The notes under the pieces were generated by a model, which saw only the letters and a program-made list of their open reading frames with translations, was not told where the DNA came from and ran no database searches. Shown here in pieces: positions 14,361 through 62,889 of a stretch of DNA of 62,889 bases (position 1 is its first letter; the number at the start of each line of letters is the position of its first letter). The DNA comes from Myxococcota bacterium (GTDB lineage: Bacteria; Myxococcota_A; Polyangia; HGW-17), in NCBI GenBank assembly GCA_018821305.1, contig JAHJMN010000101.1, positions 1-62,889 of the forward strand, given 5' to 3'. Both the position numbers and the translations under genes were made by a program.

Positions 14361-14502
14361 GTTACTGTCCTGAAATACTAAATTTTCAAGTTTTATCCAG
14401 GTTTTTACTCAGGACAGTAACCGCAAGGTTCTGAATATACTGGTAGTGGCCTGGTAGGATTTTTCCGAAAATCCTTCGCGAAGCGAATTACAGGACACGA
14501 AC
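14361..14502 (+). mobile_element. Type A paired-hairpin MITE-like element, copy A1
   Basis: 142 bp, starting GTTACTGTCCTGAAATAC and ending ACAGGACACGAAC. Hairpin 1 is made by GTTACTGTCCTGA and TCAGGACAGTAAC. A linker (CGCAAGGTTCTGAAT) leads to hairpin 2, whose inner part has GGATTTTTCCGAAAATCC and the palindrome CTTCGCGAAG. It is flanked by TGCTTA (left) and TGCTCA (right), a 6-bp duplication with one change. It lies in the divergent gap between the transglycosylase and the histidine-kinase-like gene, where it could affect promoters. Confidence 0.9.
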
Positions 14503-20575: not shown

Positions 20576-20683
20576 TTCCAAAAAGCTGGAATTAGACCCG
20601 CCGCTGCTCTGTTAAACCGTATTGGTTGATATTCTTGAGTTAAAATCAGCGAAAAATTTGAAAAACTGTATTACAGGACTCCA

Positions 20684-20890
20684 CTTTCGGAGTAATACGA
20701 TAGTGACTTGTTTTAAAGAAATTCTTCAGGAGAAAGCCCCTCTAAAGCATTCCGCTGCGCGAAATTGCCTACCTGATTTTCCTGTTGCTGCTACTGATTT
20801 CCTGTTTATCTGAAATTTTTTAACAGGGAGACGGGTAGTCAGGTAAATAGTGACAGGCTCAGAGCGTAACCATTTAATATCAATTAATAA
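20684..20890 (+). repeat. Family C modular intergenic repeat, copy C2
   Basis: Starts at CTTTCGGAGTAATACGATAG. It continues through TTCAGGAGAAAGCCCC, the GCATTCCGCTGCGCGAAA segment, CCTG-type words (CCTGATT, CCTGTTG, CCTGTTT), a short T-rich turn and CAGG/GGGT words, and ends near TTTAATATCAATTAA. Bases 20735-20778 are identical to 43327-43370 in copy C5. It occupies the gap between the MFS gene and the convergent tatB-like gene, where the opposed CCTG/CAGG arms could form a large stem in RNA. Confidence 0.8.
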
Positions 20891-20974
20891 TTAAAAAAAA
20901 TACGTAATTTTTAATTCAATTTCCCAATTTCAATCCTTTTATTCCGAAATTGGTCTATCGTTTCGTATTGCAGA

Positions 20975-33692: not shown

Positions 33693-33753
33693 GATTATTT
33701 CTCCAGAAAATATTATCGGTGAGGATTGTGGGAAATTTAGAATTATCTATTCC

Positions 33754-33956
33754 GCTTTCGGAGTAATACGATTGTGACTCGTTTTAAACAAATGCTTCAG
33801 GAATGAGCCCCCTGTTTTCCCCTTGCATTTTTGCAAAGCAAAAATTGCCTCCCTGTCACTGCTACTGATTTCCCGTTTATCTGAAATTTTTTAACAGGGA
33901 CTCAGATAGTCAGGTAAACAGGTAACAGGGTCAGGTCATAAACATCTAATATCAAT
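33754..33956 (+). repeat. Family C modular intergenic repeat, copy C3
   Basis: Starts GCTTTCGGAGTAATACGATT and ends AACATCTAATATCAATG. The mid-segment is the GCATTTTTGC...GCAAAAATTGCC hairpin type, not the GCATTCCGC type seen in C2 and C5. Bases 33794-33856 are identical to 38990-39052 in copy C4. The right half has CAGG words at 6-8 base spacing (CAGATAGTCAGGTAAACAGG, then TAACAGGGTCAGGTCA). It lies between the starts of a divergent unknown gene and the 3' end of a kinase gene. Confidence 0.85.
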
Positions 33957-34033
33957 GTAAAATTACAAAAACTTGAAGAAAATACTTACTTTTTAGATTT
34001 CGATATTTTTACTCGAAAGCGGTCTAAGGAAAT

Positions 34034-35365: not shown

Positions 35366-35397
35366 ACAATAAAAGGGTGTTTAAAAAAAGAGAAATA

Positions 35398-35550
35398 GTT
35401 AATGTCCTGTAATACGATCTTTTCAATTTTACACCAAATTTGGACACAGGGCATTAAGAATGAAGACCCTGAAATTATTGTAGTGTTCTGAATAGCATGT
35501 TTTCTTAAACATGCTCAATTTTGATAAAAATTGAATTTCAGGACACGAAC
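35398..35550 (+). mobile_element. Type B paired-hairpin MITE-like element, copy B1
   Basis: 153 bp, starting GTTAATGTCCTGTAATAC and ending TTTCAGGACACGAAC, flanked on both sides by the direct repeat GAAATA. Hairpin 1 arms are GTTAATGTCCTG and CAGGGCATTAAG. The linker is AATGAAGACCCTGAAATTA. Hairpin 2 arms are GTGTTCTGAA and TTTCAGGACAC, with inner stems AGCATGTTT...AAACATGCT and CAATTTT...AAAAATTG. The ends match type A, but the interior is different. Confidence 0.9.
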
Positions 35551-35556
35551 GAAATA

Positions 35557-35619
35557 GTTAATGTCCTGCAATTCGCTTTTCGAAGGAATTCAGTAGAATT
35601 CACGATGGGACATTAATAA
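35557..35619 (+). repeat. Solo hairpin related to type B left end
   Basis: Begins GTTAATGTCCTGCAATTCGC and ends GGGACATTAAT, so it is a single hairpin with type B-like arms and a different loop (containing GAATTC twice). It starts directly after the right GAAATA repeat of element B1. It looks like a one-hairpin derivative or a pre-existing half element next to which B1 inserted. Confidence 0.65.
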
Positions 35620-38268: not shown

Positions 38269-38946
38269 ATGGCTATATTCAAAAAGTATCCCGTGTCCGA
38301 ACTTGTACGTCTTGGCCCTGAAATTAACGAAGTTGTAGGAAACTATGCGGCGGAAAATATCGCCCTCCTGGCTCTCGCTGGAGAAATGGAGAATCTTGCA
38401 GGAGAACTGATGGAAATCCGCCAGCCGGAGTCAATGAATCTGGAGATGGCCGATCGTGTGCGTGATGCTCTGGTTATCAGTTTTGTTCATGGTCTTTCAC
38501 ATTTCAGTTACCGCCTTGATAGGCGAGATTTGAAGGAAAAGGCCGATCGTCTTGAGGCAAAACTTTTAGATGATGGATATGCCTGGATAAAAGCCCCCTA
38601 CGGAGAGGAATCCGCGAGAATTCACCGACTTTTAAATGATGCCAGTGATCCGAAAATACGCGCCGATCTTGAAAGTCTGAATCTTAAGGAAACCATAGAA
38701 GCTATTGCAGCAGCACAACTTGATTTTGAAAAAGCTGAATTTACTGCCAGTCATTTGAGTGAACAGGCCAGAGATGCCCTGCAAAAAATCCGAACACTCA
38801 TCAAGGAATTTCATCAAAAGATAGAACTTTACACAGTCATGGTTCAAAATGAGTATTCCGACGGTGAGCATTTAAGTATTCTCGCAAAACTCATAAAACC
38901 CCTGTACGAAGCCACCTCCCGCATAAAAGCCCGGGGCGAAGTCTAA
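38269..38946 (+). CDS. Helical protein of unknown function
   Basis: 225 residues from the ATG at 38269, which has GGAG at 38259-38262; an ATG at 38257 is in frame but overlaps that ribosome site. The protein is all-helical with heptad-like stretches and no signal peptide, TM or Cys motif. Segments such as MENLAGELMEIRQPESMNLEMA and the C-terminal HQKIELYTVMVQ suggest a four-helix or coiled-coil protein. I do not recognise the family. It follows the double kinase by 103 bases and may be a substrate or partner, but nothing proves that. Confidence 0.65.
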   Translation: MAIFKKYPVSELVRLGPEINEVVGNYAAENIALLALAGEMENLAGELMEIRQPESMNLEMADRVRDALVISFVHGLSHFSYRLDRRDLKEKADRLEAKLLDDGYAWIKAPYGEESARIHRLLNDASDPKIRADLESLNLKETIEAIAAAQLDFEKAEFTASHLSEQARDALQKIRTLIKEFHQKIELYTVMVQNEYSDGEHLSILAKLIKPLYEATSRIKARGEV

Positions 38947-38949
38947 ACC

Positions 38950-39075
38950 GCCTTCGGATTAATATGATATTAAGCAATTTTCAGGAAAAGCTTCAGGAAT
39001 GAGCCCCCTGTTTTCCCCTTGCATTTTTGCAAAGCAAAAATTGCCTCCCTGTTCCTGCTCCTGTTTCTCGCTTTT
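38950..39075 (+). repeat. Family C repeat, truncated copy C4
   Basis: Has the head (CCTTCGGATTAATATGAT) and the hairpin mid-segment, identical to C3 over 63 bases (38990-39052), then stops after CCTGTTCCTGCTCCTG without the CAGG arm or right end. The rest of the gap to 39434 is AT-rich with no gene that I can support. Confidence 0.75.
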
Positions 39076-43139: not shown

Positions 43140-43273
43140 AATAAATCTCCTTTAACTCTTAACATGCTCCGTGACAGACAAATTTTCAACAGAATACTTG
43201 TTCACACAAGTAACCGAATATTCACTTTACGGTGACTTTGAATAAAAATGTATGGCATTCAGGAAGATTATAC

Positions 43274-43478
43274 CGCTTCCTGAGTAATACGATTGTGAGT
43301 TATTCTAAAGAAAATCTTCAGGAAATAGCCCCTCTAAAGCATTCCGCTGCGCGAAATTGCCTACCTGATTGTCCTGTTTCTGCTACTGATCTCCTGGTTG
43401 CCTGATTTTTTTAACAGGGACTCAGGCAGTCAGGCAAACAGGGTCAGGGTCAGGTCATAAACATCTAATATCAATTTT
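43274..43478 (+). repeat. Family C modular intergenic repeat, copy C5
   Basis: Head CGCTTCCTGAGTAATACGAT, mid-segment of the GCATTCCGC type (43327-43370 identical to 20735-20778), CCTG arm, T-run, CAGG arm (CAGGCAGTCAGGCAAACAGG, then GTCAGGGTCAGGTCA) and right end AACATCTAATATCAATTTTA. Just after it AAATTGAATTTCAGAACACG (about 43489-43508) matches a type B element right end, so a decayed B element probably abuts it. Confidence 0.85.
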
Positions 43479-43527
43479 AAGTTCCAAAAAATTGAATTTC
43501 AGAACACGTGGATAAAGTGTGGATATT

Positions 43528-46732: not shown

Positions 46733-46885
46733 GTCCGTGTCCTGTAATTCGCATCGCGAAGGATTTTATGAAAAATCCTGACTAAGACGTATTTCTGAAG
46801 GAAATTGTCAAAGTCGGCAACTGTTTTCGCAGAAAACAGCGAGAGACAGTCCGTTGCTACAGGCATAATAAATTCAAAACCAAGG
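46733..46885 (-). mobile_element. Decayed type A element
   Basis: Reverse-oriented relic. The right end appears as GTCCGTGTCCTGTAATTCGC followed by ATCGCGAAGGATTTTATG and AAAAATCC, matching hairpin 2. After an unrelated stretch, CTACAGGCATAATAAATTC and AAAACC (about 46858-46885) match the linker of type A. The hairpin 1 end is gone. It occupies the upstream side of hisS. Confidence 0.6.
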
Positions 46886-48561: not shown

Positions 48562-49196
48562 CAAACCTTAGAAATAAATTATTTTTTCTGGGATTTATCC
48601 CTGTATTTGCATTACCAGTTGTTTTCTCATCCGTTTCCGGAAGTCATAACTCTAATGTTTACAACACTATATCCGGATTAACCCAGACTACTGACGATTC
48701 TTCTCAAACTGAAAAAATGTCCCCGGAGCAGATGCTTTCTTCTGCGGAATCAATGTCCTCTGGCTGGCCTTCTAAAGAAGCTGCTGTCCAGAAAATGTTT
48801 GAGGAAGCAACTAAAAAGAAAAACATCATGCGCATGAACTGCCTTGAACCCAAAACCAAATCCGTGAAGTTCTGGGTTGCAGAAGGTAATTCCGCATACA
48901 GGGAACTAAAGGCCCTCGATAAATCAAAAATAACGCTGAGTTATCAGAAGGTTAAAGTTATCAATACAAACATAGAAGAACAGGTTTTCGAGGCTTCCCG
49001 GTGCGTAGGCGACGAGAAATTCTCTACGGGAGAAGGTTTCGAAATGAAACTAAGCAAACCTGAATACAACATTTACGACCCGGATCAACCCAACCTTGCT
49101 GTGTTTGATCCGCTTGAGAAGCCTTCGGGTTACCTTCCGTACAATCCGGACTGGTCAGTTGAACTTACCTGGCCTAATGCTTCTCCATATAAATAG
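48558..49196 (+). CDS. Secreted protein of unknown function
   Basis: 212 residues with an N-terminal signal or anchor (FFLGFIPVFALPVVFSS), a Ser/Thr-rich linker, then a domain with two Cys (MNCLEPKTK and SRCVGDEK) and many Tyr/Trp. I do not recognise the family. GGAGG precedes the ATG. The TAG stop is formed by TA of the target duplication and the first G of mobile element A2; without the insertion the same codon position reads TAA, so the protein is unchanged. Confidence 0.72.
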   Translation: MTNLRNKLFFLGFIPVFALPVVFSSVSGSHNSNVYNTISGLTQTTDDSSQTEKMSPEQMLSSAESMSSGWPSKEAAVQKMFEEATKKKNIMRMNCLEPKTKSVKFWVAEGNSAYRELKALDKSKITLSYQKVKVINTNIEEQVFEASRCVGDEKFSTGEGFEMKLSKPEYNIYDPDQPNLAVFDPLEKPSGYLPYNPDWSVELTWPNASPYK

Positions 49197-49336
49197 TTCG
49201 TGTCCTGGAATTCGCTACGCGAAGAAATTTATTTAAATTTCTAACAGGTCACAGTAATAAATTCAACACCTTGCCCTCACTGTCCTGAGTGAAAATCAGG
49301 TGGAAACTTGAAAATTTGGTTTTTCAGGACAGTGAC
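49196..49336 (-). mobile_element. Type A paired-hairpin MITE-like element, copy A2
   Basis: 141 bp, reverse orientation. Starts GTTCGTGTCCTGGAATTCGC and ends CAGGACAGTGAC. Flanked on both sides by TAAATA (49190-49195 and 49337-49342). The mid-part keeps AAATTCAACACCTTGC. It lies between the unknown secreted protein and the outer-membrane barrel of the polysaccharide-export set. Confidence 0.9.
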
Positions 49337-55727: not shown

Positions 55728-55786
55728 ACAATTCCCTCTGCACCGACCCGATGCCTTTTAACCAACATTATATTCAACGATAAGTA

Positions 55787-55939
55787 GTTAATGTCCTGTA
55801 ATACCAAGTTTTCAAGTTTAAGCCGAATTTCTGCCCAGGACATTAAGAATGAAGACCTTGAAATTATTGTAGTGTTCTGAATAGCATGTTTTCGTAAACA
55901 TGCTCAATTTTGATAAAAATTGAATTTCAGGACACGAAC
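55787..55939 (+). mobile_element. Type B paired-hairpin MITE-like element, copy B2
   Basis: 153 bp, the same length as B1. Starts GTTAATGTCCTGTAATACC, ends TTTCAGGACACGAAC, flanked on both sides by TAAGTA (55781-55786 and 55940-55945). Hairpin 1 is better kept than in B1 (CAGGACATTAAG arm). The second half (from GAATGAAGACC to the end) is almost identical to B1. Confidence 0.92.
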
Positions 55940-55969
55940 TAAGTACAGGTAACTTTTTAAAATACATTC

Positions 55970-56691: not shown

Positions 56692-56833
56692 GTTACTGTC
56701 CTGAAATACCGAAAACCAAATTTTTCGCCCGATTTTTGCTCAGGACAGTAACCGCAAGGTGTTGAATTTATTACTAGTGGCCTGTTCGGATTTTTAATAA
56801 AATCCTTCGCGAAGCGAATTACAGGACACGAAC
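56692..56833 (+). mobile_element. Type A paired-hairpin MITE-like element, copy A3
   Basis: 142 bp. Hairpin 1 arms GTTACTGTCCTGA (56692-56704) and TCAGGACAGTAAC (56740-56752) are perfect. Hairpin 2 arms are GTGGCCTG (56777-56784) and CAGGACAC (56822-56829), with inner GGATTTT...AAAATCC and CTTCGCGAAG. Flanked by perfect GATTTA duplications (56686-56691 and 56834-56839). The best-preserved reference copy. Confidence 0.93.
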
Positions 56834-57655: not shown

Positions 57656-57797
57656 GTTCGTGTCCTGTAATTCGCTTCGCGAAGAAATTTATTAAAATTT
57701 CTAACAGGCCACTACCAGTAAATTCAACACCTTGCGGTTACTGTCCTGAGCAAAAATTGGGCAAAAAATTTGAAAACTTGTATTTCAGGACAGTAAC
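57656..57797 (-). mobile_element. Type A paired-hairpin MITE-like element, copy A4
   Basis: 142 bp, reverse orientation, from GTTCGTGTCCTGTAATTCGC to TCAGGACAGTAAC. Flanked by perfect TAAATA duplications (57650-57655 and 57798-57803), the same target word as copy A2. It ends 30 bases before the start of the large EGF/RCC1 gene and therefore lies in its promoter region. Confidence 0.93.
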
Positions 57798-57827: not shown

Positions 57828-60800
57828 ATGAGAAAAAGTCTATTTATTCTTTTTTCAGTTTTAACTGCAATTGCTTATTCTGGCTGTGATGATGATGATT
57901 CAAATAACTCATCTTCAGTCTGCGAAGGAATTACCTGCAGTGGTCATGGTACTTGTTTTGATGTAGGCGGAAATCCATCATGCGCTTGTGAACTTGGGTA
58001 TCATTCACAGCAGCTCAACTGCCTTTCCGATACAAATCCATGTGAAGGTGTAACCTGCAGTGGTCATGGCACATGTGTGGATATGGGCAATGGCTCTGTT
58101 TCATGTAATTGTGAGACCGGATACCATGCAGAAAGTCTTGATTGTGTTGAAGATGACGCTGTCTGCGAAGGAATTACCTGCTCCGGTCATGGCACCTGCA
58201 GCGATGACGGAAGCGGCAATCCTTTATGTAATTGCGAAACCGGCTATCATGCGGATGGAACCGAATGTATAGCAGATTCCATTGTCTGCGAAGGAATTAC
58301 CTGCTCCGGTCATGGCACGTGCAGTGATGACGGAAGCGGCAACCCAGTATGTAATTGCGAAACCGGCTATCATGCGGATGGAACCGAATGTATACGTGAT
58401 AATTCTGCTCCGCAGATTACCAGTACTCCGGAAACAGACATTTATTCCGGTTCAATGTATACTTACGATATTACCTGCACCGATGCCGACGGAGATACAC
58501 TTACTTTAAATGTTGAATCTCAGGATACTTGCGGGGGCAATATAACAGATAATGGAAACGGTACTGGTTCCTACAGTTTTACACCCACAGCTGCTGGCAA
58601 CTGTAACATGTCTATAGAATGTTGTGACGGATCACTATGTGGTATCCAGGCGACAATCATTAATATTAACAACAATCCTGAATCCTGGGACGTACTTTCT
58701 TCCACCTACAATCATACATGCGGTATCAAAAGTGGAATCCTTTATTGTTGGGGCATGAATTCCAACGGGCAACTTGGAAATAATTCTATTACTGACAGAT
58801 TTTATCCTACGAGAGTTGAAGGTGTTGGTTGGACTCATGTCGCAGCAGGGTATACACATACCTGTGGTATTAAAGGTGGGTATCTTTTCTGCTGGGGAGA
58901 AGGAATTGCTGTTGGTGATGGTACTAATATAGATAAGCTTGTACCAACTCAGGTTGGACTCTCGAATGCGTGGACTTATATAACTTCAGGGGGTTCGTTT
59001 TCCTGTGGTCTAAGAGGTGGAGAACTTTACTGTTGGGGTTATAATTATAGCGGCCAACTTGGAAATGGTACAAACACCGTTAGTTATGCTCCTGTTAAAA
59101 TAGGGACTGACACTGATTGGAGCATCGTGTCTGCTGGGGGTGGTCATACCTGCGGCCTCAGAAATCAGAACCTTTATTGCTGGGGCAATAATTCTTATAA
59201 TCAGTCTGGTCCTGTTTATTCCAATGTCCCTTTACGTGTCGGAATTGAAACTGGCTGGACTACTGTCAGTTCAGGTTATTCTCATACATGCGGCATAATT
59301 CAAGGAAACCTTTTCTGCTGGGGAGCAAATTCTGACTATCAACTTGGGACAGGTGATTCTGTTAATAAGACAAATCCTGTAAAAATAGGAACAGATATTG
59401 ATTGGACTTTTATCAGTTCAGGTAATTCTCATACGTGCGGTATTCGAACAAGCGGTGCTCTATATTGCTGGGGACGTAATTTATATCATCAACTCGGGGA
59501 TGGGGCAGAGTCTATTAATACTCCAGCTCAAATTGGTGTAGATACCTGGGGTGTTGTGACAACTGGAGAAAGGATGTCATGCGGCTTATTAAGCGGAAAT
59601 GACCTGTACTGCTGGGGAAACAATAACTGGGGACAGTGTGGCAGTTCAATTAATGAAACATACAGATGGAATTCACAGGATGGAAAATTGTGGGACATAG
59701 TTAGTCCACAGAAAGTTACTTCAAGTGAAAAAATTTCTCTGTTCAGGCAAAGTAAGGTAGCTTTTAGCGAAAATGACACTACAGTTAATTCCTTTCTTGT
59801 TGTTTTAGGTTCGGAACCTTCTGATGATGTAAATGTTGTACTGGCCCCCGATGTAGACGGAAGAATAGTACTTGATGCTACTCAATTACTCTTTACACCC
59901 GAAAACTGGAGCGCTCCGCAAATTGTTCATTATAGTGCAGATTTAACTAATCTTTATGATGATGATGATGTGAACTTGAACATAGAGTCAGGACCAGCGG
60001 TATCGGCAGATGCTGGGTATAATGAATTGGCAGGTAATTCAATTCCTCTTGAAATAACAGATGATGACACATTTGGCTTTATTTTAACTACTGATAAACG
60101 TATAAACTTGCCTGAAGGTTCAACTGGAGCCTATAAATTTGTACTTACATCAAAACCTTATGGAAATGTGTCAGTTCCTGTAATATCTTCCAATCCTTCA
60201 ATTTTGATACCAGATGTCAATAACATTGTTTTTACTCCTGATAACTGGAATGTCGAGCAGACTGTCAATGTCAGTATTGCTGAAGATAATGTCGAAAATT
60301 TTGATCCGAGAATATTTCGACTGTTTGTTGGTCCTGCAGTTTCAAGCGATCTTCAATATAATAACCTTTCAATGGACGATTTATACATTGAAACCGGTGT
60401 AAGTGGTATTTTTTCTGATATATCATGTGGGGAATATGGATGCTGTGCGATCGATTTTAATCAAAATTTATGGTGCTGGGGAGACAAGGGAAAAAGATTT
60501 GAAACGATAAGTAATGTTTTATCAGTTTCAGTAGGTGGTTCGCTTGGTTGTGTACTAAAAAGCGACCAATCAGTCTGGTGTTGGGGAGGGGGACAGTTAG
60601 GTGATGGCACAACAAACAGTTCCACTGATCCGGTACAAGTTCTGGATATGACAAATGCTGAAAGCATTTCCTGTGGATATTTTCATTGTTGTGCAATTAT
60701 TGACGATGGATCTTTAAAATGCTGGGGCAGGAATTCAAGTGGGCAATTGGGAATTGGAAATACCGGAACTTATTTATCTCCGGTGACTGTTCCTTTAACA

Positions 60801-62423
60801 GGTGTAAATCAGATCAGTTTGGGTTTTTCCCATTCCTGTGCACTTCTCAATGACGAAACAGTAAAATGCTGGGGCTCCAATAGTAGCGGACAAATTGGCG
60901 ATGGTACATCAACCTCAAGGCTCAGTCCTGTTTCTGTAGTTGGCCTCTCTGGAGTATCAGCAATTGCTGTTAATGGAGCAAGCAGTTGTGCGCTGTTAAG
61001 TGATAAAACAGTAAAATGCTGGGGCTCCAATAGTAGCGGACAAGTTGGTGATGGTACGACATATTCAAGAAATACTCCTAATGCGGTAATAAATCTCACT
61101 GAAGTAAGAGAGCTTATACATGGAGGAACCGGTGTCACTGCAATAAAAGAAGATAATACAATATTGAGTTGGGGTAACAATTACCGTGGGTTTCTTGGGG
61201 ACGGGACGACAATAAACAGGAGCAGTCCTGTTGAATCGATCAATTATGGCGCTACTCAGAAAATATCAAGAGGTGATCAAGTCACCTGCATAATAGATGA
61301 TGGTAATAAAGTAAAATGTCTTGGATCAAATGAAGGTGGTAATTTGGGAATAGGAACAAATTATGATAATTTGGATCACCTTTTTCCAGAATTTGTTCAA
61401 TTTGAAACTGAAATACCAGCGCATGAATCAGTAACACTAACAGAAATCCATTGGAACCCATCGGTCGTTGATGATACATATGGGGAATTTATTGAATTAT
61501 ATAATTATACTTCAAAGGACGTGAACTTTTTTAATTGTTCTCTCCTTGTTGGTTCTACTGAATATGAGTTGGAGGATATTGTTATTCCAAGTCTTGGAAC
61601 AGTAGTATTTGCCTCCAACGATAATCCACTGACAAATGGCGGTTTTACTGCTGATGGATTGATTTATGGAGGATTCACGCTGGAAAATTCGAATGCGGAG
61701 ACCATATCTGTTAAGTGCTATGAAATTCTGGAAATGGACAGCATTGATTTTGCAGGAGCTGCCTTGCCTGCTGGTGGTGACGGAATTTCCATGCAACTTG
61801 GAACTGAATTTTATTCAAATAAACAAAATGATTCATCAGCGGCGTGGTGTGATTCAAGTCAATCTTATGGAGATGGGGATCTTGGTACACCAGGAGCAAT
61901 GAATGAGCTTTGTACGAAAAATATTATTTATGGAACCTCCTTTACTGAGCATCCACCCTGGACTACAGACGGACAATGGGCTTCAGGAATGACTAAAAGT
62001 TTTTATACGACTATTCCCGAATGTTACAGCTCAAATACCTGTTTAGGGTCAAATCTTGAATTAAGTTACTGGGGCTCAGATGACTACAGTACTGGTTATG
62101 TCGTTTCCCCACCAATTGACTTAACTGGAGTTACAACTGCACAATTAAATTTCAAAGCATATATTTATGCTGATAATTACAGTGAATATTATGGCTTTCA
62201 GGTTTCCACTAATTCAGGTGCAATGACAAATACATTAACTGAAACAAGTCTTCCTTATACATCTTCATATGGATGGCACTTTTTAAGTGATGATTGGCAT
62301 GACATTACTGTTGATTTGACACCCTGGGCAGGCTCCATTGTTTATTTAAAATTTGGATTAAGAGGTTGGACTAGTTTTGGATCAGGAATATATATTGATG
62401 ACTTATTTGTTACAGGAAATTAA
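57828..62423 (+). CDS. Large surface lipoprotein: EGF-like, RCC1, lamin-tail and C-terminal jelly-roll domains
   Basis: 1531 residues. Lipobox AYSGC followed by DDDD (Cys20). Four EGF-like modules (about 32-190) each have C-EG-TCSGHGTC and CNCETGYH. Next comes a cadherin/Ig-like domain (ADGDTLTLNVES), then a first set of RCC1-like repeats (about 285-610, W-x-x-x-S-x-G-x-x-H-T-CG...LYCWG-x-N-x-x-G-Q-LG). Two Calx-beta-like spacers follow (about 640-850), then a second RCC1 set (about 860-1190, CALL-D-TVKCWGSNSSGQ-GDG). A lamin-tail domain (LTEIHWNPS...GEFIELYN) and a C-terminal MAM/jelly-roll-like domain with a Cys pair (ECYSSNTC) end it. GAGGAGA precedes the ATG. An adhesin-like or matrix role is likely. 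Confidence 0.88.
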   Translation: MRKSLFILFSVLTAIAYSGCDDDDSNNSSSVCEGITCSGHGTCFDVGGNPSCACELGYHSQQLNCLSDTNPCEGVTCSGHGTCVDMGNGSVSCNCETGYHAESLDCVEDDAVCEGITCSGHGTCSDDGSGNPLCNCETGYHADGTECIADSIVCEGITCSGHGTCSDDGSGNPVCNCETGYHADGTECIRDNSAPQITSTPETDIYSGSMYTYDITCTDADGDTLTLNVESQDTCGGNITDNGNGTGSYSFTPTAAGNCNMSIECCDGSLCGIQATIININNNPESWDVLSSTYNHTCGIKSGILYCWGMNSNGQLGNNSITDRFYPTRVEGVGWTHVAAGYTHTCGIKGGYLFCWGEGIAVGDGTNIDKLVPTQVGLSNAWTYITSGGSFSCGLRGGELYCWGYNYSGQLGNGTNTVSYAPVKIGTDTDWSIVSAGGGHTCGLRNQNLYCWGNNSYNQSGPVYSNVPLRVGIETGWTTVSSGYSHTCGIIQGNLFCWGANSDYQLGTGDSVNKTNPVKIGTDIDWTFISSGNSHTCGIRTSGALYCWGRNLYHQLGDGAESINTPAQIGVDTWGVVTTGERMSCGLLSGNDLYCWGNNNWGQCGSSINETYRWNSQDGKLWDIVSPQKVTSSEKISLFRQSKVAFSENDTTVNSFLVVLGSEPSDDVNVVLAPDVDGRIVLDATQLLFTPENWSAPQIVHYSADLTNLYDDDDVNLNIESGPAVSADAGYNELAGNSIPLEITDDDTFGFILTTDKRINLPEGSTGAYKFVLTSKPYGNVSVPVISSNPSILIPDVNNIVFTPDNWNVEQTVNVSIAEDNVENFDPRIFRLFVGPAVSSDLQYNNLSMDDLYIETGVSGIFSDISCGEYGCCAIDFNQNLWCWGDKGKRFETISNVLSVSVGGSLGCVLKSDQSVWCWGGGQLGDGTTNSSTDPVQVLDMTNAESISCGYFHCCAIIDDGSLKCWGRNSSGQLGIGNTGTYLSPVTVPLTGVNQISLGFSHSCALLNDETVKCWGSNSSGQIGDGTSTSRLSPVSVVGLSGVSAIAVNGASSCALLSDKTVKCWGSNSSGQVGDGTTYSRNTPNAVINLTEVRELIHGGTGVTAIKEDNTILSWGNNYRGFLGDGTTINRSSPVESINYGATQKISRGDQVTCIIDDGNKVKCLGSNEGGNLGIGTNYDNLDHLFPEFVQFETEIPAHESVTLTEIHWNPSVVDDTYGEFIELYNYTSKDVNFFNCSLLVGSTEYELEDIVIPSLGTVVFASNDNPLTNGGFTADGLIYGGFTLENSNAETISVKCYEILEMDSIDFAGAALPAGGDGISMQLGTEFYSNKQNDSSAAWCDSSQSYGDGDLGTPGAMNELCTKNIIYGTSFTEHPPWTTDGQWASGMTKSFYTTIPECYSSNTCLGSNLELSYWGSDDYSTGYVVSPPIDLTGVTTAQLNFKAYIYADNYSEYYGFQVSTNSGAMTNTLTETSLPYTSSYGWHFLSDDWHDITVDLTPWAGSIVYLKFGLRGWTSFGSGIYIDDLFVTGN

Positions 62424-62503: not shown

Positions 62504-62645
62504 GTTACTGTCCTGAAATACGGGAAATCAAATTTTTCGCCGATTTTTTGCTCAGGACAGTAACCGCAAGGTGTTGAAAATATTAATAGTGGCCGGATAG
62601 AATTTTTAATAAAATTCTTCGCGAAGCGAATTTCCGGACACGAAC
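62504..62645 (+). mobile_element. Type A paired-hairpin MITE-like element, copy A5
   Basis: 142 bp from GTTACTGTCCTGAAATACG to CCGGACACGAAC. Flanks TATTTA (left) and TATTTG (right), one mismatch. Hairpin 2 has compensating changes: GTGGCCGGAT pairs with TCCGGACAC, and GAATTTTTAATAAAATTC keeps its stem, so pairing is conserved while sequence varies. Confidence 0.92.
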
Positions 62646-62750: not shown

Positions 62751-62889
62751 GTTACTGTCCTGAAATACCGAAAATCAAATTTTTCGCCCGATTTTTGCTC
62801 AGGACAGTAACCGCAAGGTGTTGAATTTATTGTAGTGGCCTGTTAGGATTTTTAATAAAATCCTTCGCGAAGCGAATTACAGGACACGA
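62751..62889 (+). mobile_element. Type A paired-hairpin MITE-like element, copy A6 (cut by window end)
   Basis: Starts GTTACTGTCCTGAAATACC after TAAGTA and runs to ...CAGGACACGA at the last base. By comparison with the other copies it needs about three more bases (ending GAAC), so the right target duplication is outside the window. It is 105 bases downstream of A5 in the same orientation. Confidence 0.9.

Follow-up and report, generated by a model that had tools for sequence, protein, structure and literature searches.

Two subfamilies of hairpin MITEs in a Myxococcota genome, very probably mobilised by an ISNCY-like transposase, and the probable self-targeting polarity of their insertion

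In this paper we looked at the 153-bp type B element of a Myxococcota bacterium and at its relation to the type A element of the same genome. Sequence comparison makes it very probable that A and B are subfamilies of a single MITE family and that an ISNCY/ISRm17-like insertion sequence (IS) found in the same genome supplies the DDE transposase that moves them in trans. The unexpected and interesting part is a polarity, probably self-targeting, in which new elements would be added beside existing ends in a fixed direction.

The window, which is the whole analysed stretch of 62,889 nucleotides, contains two type B copies of 153 bp each on the plus strand, at 35398-35550 and 55787-55939. Direct reading of the sequence confirmed both copies and their perfect 6-bp duplications, GAAATA for copy 1 (35392-35397 and 35551-35556) and TAAGTA for copy 2 (55781-55786 and 55940-55945). 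The ends of B, GTTAATGTCCTG and CAGGACACGAAC, are also present in type A, as the sequence-only reading had claimed, and the two-hairpin layout that it described was found as well: each copy folds into two hairpins, of which the right-hand one encloses two inner hairpins, with fold z-scores of -4.9 and -4.3 against shuffles. In copy 1 these hairpins lie at 35399-35457 and 35483-35546 (both plus strand). The right GAAATA of this copy doubles as the 6-bp spacer to a single hairpin (35557-35616, plus strand), which follows head-to-tail, has the same left end as copy 1 and an interior similar to the A right half. Type A elements are located on the plus strand at 14361-14502 (flanks TGCTTA/TGCTCA), 56692-56833 (GATTTA duplications), 62504-62645 (flanks TATTTA/TATTTG) and 62751-62889 (truncated by the contig end), and on the minus strand at 49196-49336 (TATTTA duplications, intermediate left loop) and 57656-57797 (TATTTA duplications in element orientation); a degraded A right half is found at 46733-46789 (plus strand).

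The window also contains another intergenic repeat, rich in CCTG (20675-20901, 33746-33973, 38942-39066 and 43267-43492), with relatives of ~70-80% identity in many of the sampled stretches; some MITEs are inserted into CCTG-rich copies. At 57828-62423 there is a 1531-aa ORF in which repeated EGF-like and RCC1-like units were seen by eye, from the DNA repeats.

A search with the B query resulted in at least 43 matches in its own genome (5.22 Mb in 216 contigs), with the best 40 of 502 candidates scored, and in no matches in 19 other genomes. The end motif GTTCGTGTCCTG, with at most one mismatch, occurs at 541 sites in the genome, against 25 for the reversed control, and the left-hairpin pattern has 250 exact matches, against 0 in the control. 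This pattern was found in its own genome alone of the 282 in the phylum sample, with no match in the other 281; plasmids (B query), phages (A query) and viral contigs likewise gave no match. A large MITE burst, absent from the other sampled genomes of the phylum, can be linked to an ISNCY-like transposase.

The analysed sample, made up of the stretches and the window, covers 31% of the genome (1.60 Mb); the stretches were mostly picked around known copies (60 of 100 in part of the sample), and densities in the sample are not genome averages. From 126 candidates with both ends and a length of 130-170 bp we kept 120 elements after removing overlaps and low scores, a set that leaves out elements less than 40 bp from a stretch end or outside this length range. 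The collected A and B elements carry no transposase gene and are too short to encode one. None of the 120 lies mostly inside an ORF of at least 150 aa, though such ORFs cover 80% of the sample. One of the sampled stretches (L117, contig C8) shows a repeat array with CRISPR-like spacing (6-839 and 2133-2574) near a 277-aa ORF, which may by its looks encode a Csb2-type Cas protein.

Perfect 6-bp duplications flank 68 of the 120 elements, whereas a control in which left flanks were paired with the right flanks of other elements gave a mean of 8.1 and a maximum of 16 in 200 trials. The duplications of the other 52 are imperfect, 29 of them matching at five of six positions, and every other duplication length (3-5 and 7-11 bp) gave only 0-3 perfect cases among the 120. 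The 68 perfect duplications comprise 26 different 6-mers with the consensus TAWWTA. Among pairs of non-neighbouring elements that are at least 95% identical, 4 of 46 share their 6-mer (8.7%), against 9.8% by chance. Since near-identical copies sit on different 6-mers, each insertion is an event of its own, at a new target site. An empty site that corresponds to a B copy in contig C177 was found in C18 (97.5% over 81 nt); it lacks the element and one 6-mer, and has TAGTTA where the filled site has TATTTA.

These 6-mers also bear on tyrosine recombination, cassette-like or Xer-like, in which the junction CAGGACACGAAC-6 bp-GTTACTGTCCTG would form a 12-6-12 core and circles would move between identical 6-bp overlaps. 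The junction geometry and the head-to-tail arrays described below would fit it, and a 374-aa tyrosine recombinase with no specific NCBIfam type is encoded on a contig (C205) that also carries MITEs. Yet 42 of the 46 near-identical pairs differ in their 6-mer while the flanks of one element match, and an overlap that depends on identity would not give both. Nothing connects the C205 recombinase to the MITE ends, and a DDE IS with these ends is present. We therefore regard tyrosine recombination as very improbable; the integron- or Xer-type cassette, attractive by its junction geometry, was rejected on the different 6-mers of near-identical copies.

The candidate mobiliser was found by a family search. 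The genome was searched with the transposase and recombinase profiles PF01609, PF00665, PF01797 and PF00589, and an ISL3 fragment was met by chance; beyond these profiles, a second transposase with the same ends may exist elsewhere in the genome. No rve-type transposase was matched in the genome, while the DDE_Tnp_1 profile gave one match (C216:993-1412), at the very start of contig C216. The ORF there has 449-473 aa and its best NCBIfam match is the ISNCY model NF033593, at E 1.2e-87 and with a score (294.4 bits) that falls short of the curated cut-off (325). On the 3' side of this ORF the sequence ends in CAGGACAGTAAC (...TATTTCAGGACAGTAAC), followed by TATTTA. A DNA search showed that the first 76-84 bases of this sequence recur at the edges of six other contigs, which, read outwards, show the IS left end GTTCGTGTCCTGAAATT flanked by TAACTA or TATTTA. 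The last part of the same sequence recurs at C123 and C193 and, as pieces in diverged form, at C154 and C116; the right end is seen in three near-identical copies and one diverged copy. As IS ends lie at multiple contig edges, the IS appears to be multi-copy and to break the assembly. No contig carries it in full; its length (~1.68 kb) and the way its ends are paired were pieced together from contig edges that overlap, and the TATTTA or TAACTA at its edges is read on single sides, never on the two sides of one copy together. This location explains why the autonomous element was missed as one long end pair within the sample, where no such pair was convincing.

The IS right end is identical to the A left end and the IS left end to the B right end, each over 17 of 17 bp. 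At five IS edges (C182, C170, C175, C33 and C123) a spacer of 6 bp separates the IS from the end of a MITE or of what remains of one. Residues D150, D355 and E406 are invariant in 11 of 11 transposases, and we read them as the DDE triad. The proposal that one transposase serves both A and B is strongly supported at the sequence level by an IS that has both ends, in matching roles, and apparently like targets. A PDB profile search gave a single match, to a designed protein (E 0.005), which was dismissed. Short TAAC tetranucleotide tracts were seen directly after IS or MITE ends in C154 and C193 (L126, L127) and at L018 7683.

The same ends and duplications weigh on another option, that these are REP/REPIN-like hairpins mobilised by an IS200-type (Y1) transposase. 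The hairpins, the high copy number and the intergenic location are in line with it, and the genome has three Y1 transposases, which match the REP-associated model weakly (23-25 bits, cut-off 80). Y1 transposition, however, is not known to make target duplications, nor are any known at REP/REPIN elements, whereas 68 of 120 elements here have perfect 6-bp ones and the MITE ends are identical to those of a DDE IS. The target duplications ruled out the Y1 model for the main family, and we regard it as highly improbable.

Another question is how A and B are related. The sequence-only reading had described their loops, linkers and inner stems as unrelated, and this was not supported, as the left loops and linkers are homologous and hybrids exist. 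Between A and B the 37-nt left loops share a mean identity of 55% (maximum 76%), against 27% (maximum 51%) for A and shuffled B, and the A-B linker score was equalled or exceeded by only 10 of 2,000 shuffles. An alignment of the consensus loops alone is weaker (87 of 2,000 shuffles as good), and the chief difference between the left stems is one compensated pair, C-G versus A-T. Only for the inner stems on the right is the resemblance close to chance, 81 of 2,000 shuffles scoring as well. When left half, linker and right half were compared with the two types, 63 of the 120 elements came out as pure A, 48 as pure B and 9 as mixed, three of the mixed being poor or doubtful (L095 +17239, L038 -14996 and the tied window element 49196-49336). 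Clear hybrids have an A left half with an A linker and a B right half (L033 +4089, L078 +14142) or with a B linker and a B right half (L017 +5253, L068 +13649). On these alignments A and B are sister subfamilies of one family, and B appears to differ in its right-hand interior only. The search for further types with the same ends, which had been proposed as a check, was positive: forms of 52, 61, 62, 89, 183, 207 and 245 bp exist with perfect duplications.

Two inserts were seen at fixed points within A elements. A module of ~65 bp (CACTGTTTTCGATGAAAACA..GTCGTC..) lies at one fixed point in the left hairpin of some of them and lengthens these to 207 bp, and part of the lengthened forms have perfect 6-bp duplications of their own; the module's motif occurs seven times in the sample and the module's carriers are L015 4204-4448, L028, L037 11277-11483, L056 3445-3651 (by length only), L067 and L107. 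A small palindromic insert of ~38 bp (GCTTACGCTTCCGCGCTTCGC..GCGAGAGCGCTATAG) occurs four times, always at a single fixed position in the A linker (L015, L023, L067 and L084).

It was also suggested that the paired-hairpin architecture itself matters, and here the outcome is divided: pairing is kept through compensatory changes, but transposition does not need a double hairpin, as single hairpins have perfect duplications. The compensatory check was positive for the A right half and for the left half, while the B right half is too uniform, its 27 distinct sequences having a single two-sided cell. The 33 distinct A right halves have 98.1% of their cells paired, where shuffles reach 94.9% at most, and four pairs changed on both sides (for example, 17 G-C versus 14 A-T, and 24 T-A versus 9 A-T). 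In the left half (93 distinct sequences, A and B pooled) 94.2% are paired, against at most 89.2%. The number of pairs with a two-sided change, four against a shuffle maximum of four, exceeds the shuffles in neither the A right half nor the left half, and the compensatory counts trace to few lineages. Template-switch repair of imperfect palindromes can yield compensatory changes without selection. The ends of the ISNCY-like IS show no folding beyond that of shuffles (left z +1.3, right z -1.1); MITE halves do (z -4.3 to -8.5). As the IS ends do not stand out from shuffles and single hairpins of 52, 61 and 62 bp carry perfect duplications, the hairpins seem, as far as sequence can tell, dispensable for end recognition. 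The set of A, B, hybrid and single-hairpin forms can be viewed as a natural experiment on what the transposase needs, which would be ~17 bp per end and no hairpin.

If, on the other hand, function came first, the double hairpin would be a conserved RNA or DNA device (a terminator, an mRNA stabiliser or a protein-binding site) and its spread would be secondary. Such a device would account for the compensatory changes seen in left halves and in A right halves, and for the strictly intergenic placement, although surviving insertions are expected to be intergenic anyway. No Rfam family of structured RNA was matched in the window at the gathering score, the left-hairpin pattern is missing from the other genomes of the phylum sample, and duplications also flank hybrids, single hairpins and the forms of 207 and 245 bp. 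This option seems improbable to us beside that of MITEs moved by the ISNCY-like transposase.

The arrangement of neighbouring elements raises the question of polarity. There are 48 outward-facing end pairs at most 40 bp apart, of which 38 are exactly 6 bp apart. Head-to-tail junctions, between a GTTA-type and a GTTCG-type end, account for 35 of these 38, and the other three join GTTCG to GTTCG (binomial 7e-8). Complete neighbours are in the same orientation in 11 cases and opposite in one, and in at least 8 of the 11 same-orientation pairs all three 6-mers are equal. Junctions with the palindromic spacer TAATTA are head-to-tail in six of six cases; as TAATTA is palindromic and yet always head-to-tail, the 6-mer alone cannot set the orientation. 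We infer that the transposase targets the duplication beside an existing end, in a complex that needs both types of end. A mechanism that can be tested directly is offered by the head-to-tail rule at palindromic spacers.

One could also explain the arrays by local duplication instead of insertion beside ends. Three of four A-A neighbours are 93-95% identical, more than the random A-A mean of 87.7% but not above its 95th percentile of 95.1%. Against such copying, 5 of the 11 full-full neighbours are an A beside a B, and MITE junctions with the IS itself exist. We hold local duplication to be unlikely, and insertion beside existing ends remains our preferred explanation of the arrays.

The sequence shows that the MITEs have the two ends of the IS (GTTAC.. 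and GTTCG.., 17 bp each), that each insertion duplicates a fresh 6-bp TAWWTA target between genes, and that varied interiors between two such ends, whether double hairpins, single hairpins, hybrids or nested inserts, carry perfect duplications. In the mechanism that we propose, the transposase would pair one GTTA-type with one GTTCG-type end, cut or copy the element and join it across a 6-bp stagger. The duplication beside an existing end would often be re-used as a target with fixed polarity, which may lead to head-to-tail arrays of elements and IS. The hairpins may be maintained by selection or by template-switch repair of palindromes rather than by a need of the transposase. More tentatively, and with a likelihood that we place somewhat short of even, ISRm17-like ISNCY transposases in general may insert beside their own ends, with polarity fixed by the GTTA/GTTCG difference rather than by the target, and may grow head-to-tail arrays of full elements and MITEs on a re-used 6-bp duplication; the paired-hairpin modules would be exchangeable cargo, covarying and giving rise to new subfamilies by recombination.

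Several known systems can be compared with these elements. In Microcystis aeruginosa PCC 7806 a 187-nt stem-loop MITE was assigned to ISL3 by common ends and duplication length (PMC11448079). It is similar in being bacterial, in its stem-loop and in the way it is tied to an IS, but it differs in the IS family, the 9-nt ends, the 8-nt duplications and the 31-33 copies, and the accessible part of that account describes no double hairpin or arrays (PMC11448079). The double-hairpin elements of fungal and sponge mitochondria are likewise small, possibly mobile, hairpin-built and intergenic; unlike ours they are organellar, their mobilisation is unknown and no transposase partner is described in the accessible part of the source (PMC2800124). 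REP/REPIN elements with RAYT are also abundant bacterial intergenic hairpins, going by the accessible text (PMC2817692), but there a Y1 transposase is involved, while here 6-bp duplications and DDE ends are found. Our literature search, mostly outside subscription journals and partly of incomplete texts, gave no paper that ties a MITE to an ISNCY element and no described ISNCY mechanism.

The transposase itself has distant relatives. Genomes related to the source gave weak, mostly partial matches only, in 10 of 59 including its own. A tblastn search of plasmids resulted in 170 records, all below 60% identity, and the features annotated under the listed matches are ISNCY, ISRm17, ISMlo5, ISRtr6 or ISRjo3. 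Perfect 6-8 bp TAG..CTA duplications (TAGCTA, TAGCCTA, TAGACTA, TAGGCTA, TAGTCTA, TAGTACTA) were found at 12 of 13 plasmid loci, L152 being the exception. The element ends are mostly like GTTTCCGTCCAnAAAC or GTGCCCGTCCATAAAC (GT..GTCC-type) and differ at L160 (Skermanella) and L161 (Rhodococcus). In the Marinobacter plasmid (L157 1-5264) two triplets of adjacent tyrosine recombinase genes, oriented oppositely, lie beside the ISNCY copy.

The closest comparison is with ISRm17, ISMlo5 and ISRtr6 (ISNCY; names taken from the plasmid annotation). Their sequence similarity is distant and their target is TAG(N)CTA, versus TAWWTA here. Their transposases are related to ours (22-28% identity, with the invariant D, D and E), ends such as GTTTCCGTCCATAAACG and GTGCCCGTCCATAAACG resemble GTTACTGTCCTGAAATA here, and TA..TA palindromic duplications are shared, of 6-8 bp there and 6 bp here. 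The head-to-tail layout is shared as well: it occurs with the palindrome TAGCTA at 2 of the 13 plasmid loci, in Marinobacter, where the full copy is preceded by an 85-bp piece of the right end of the element (97.6% identical), and in Rhizobium sp. T1473, where two transposase genes follow each other across TAGCTA.
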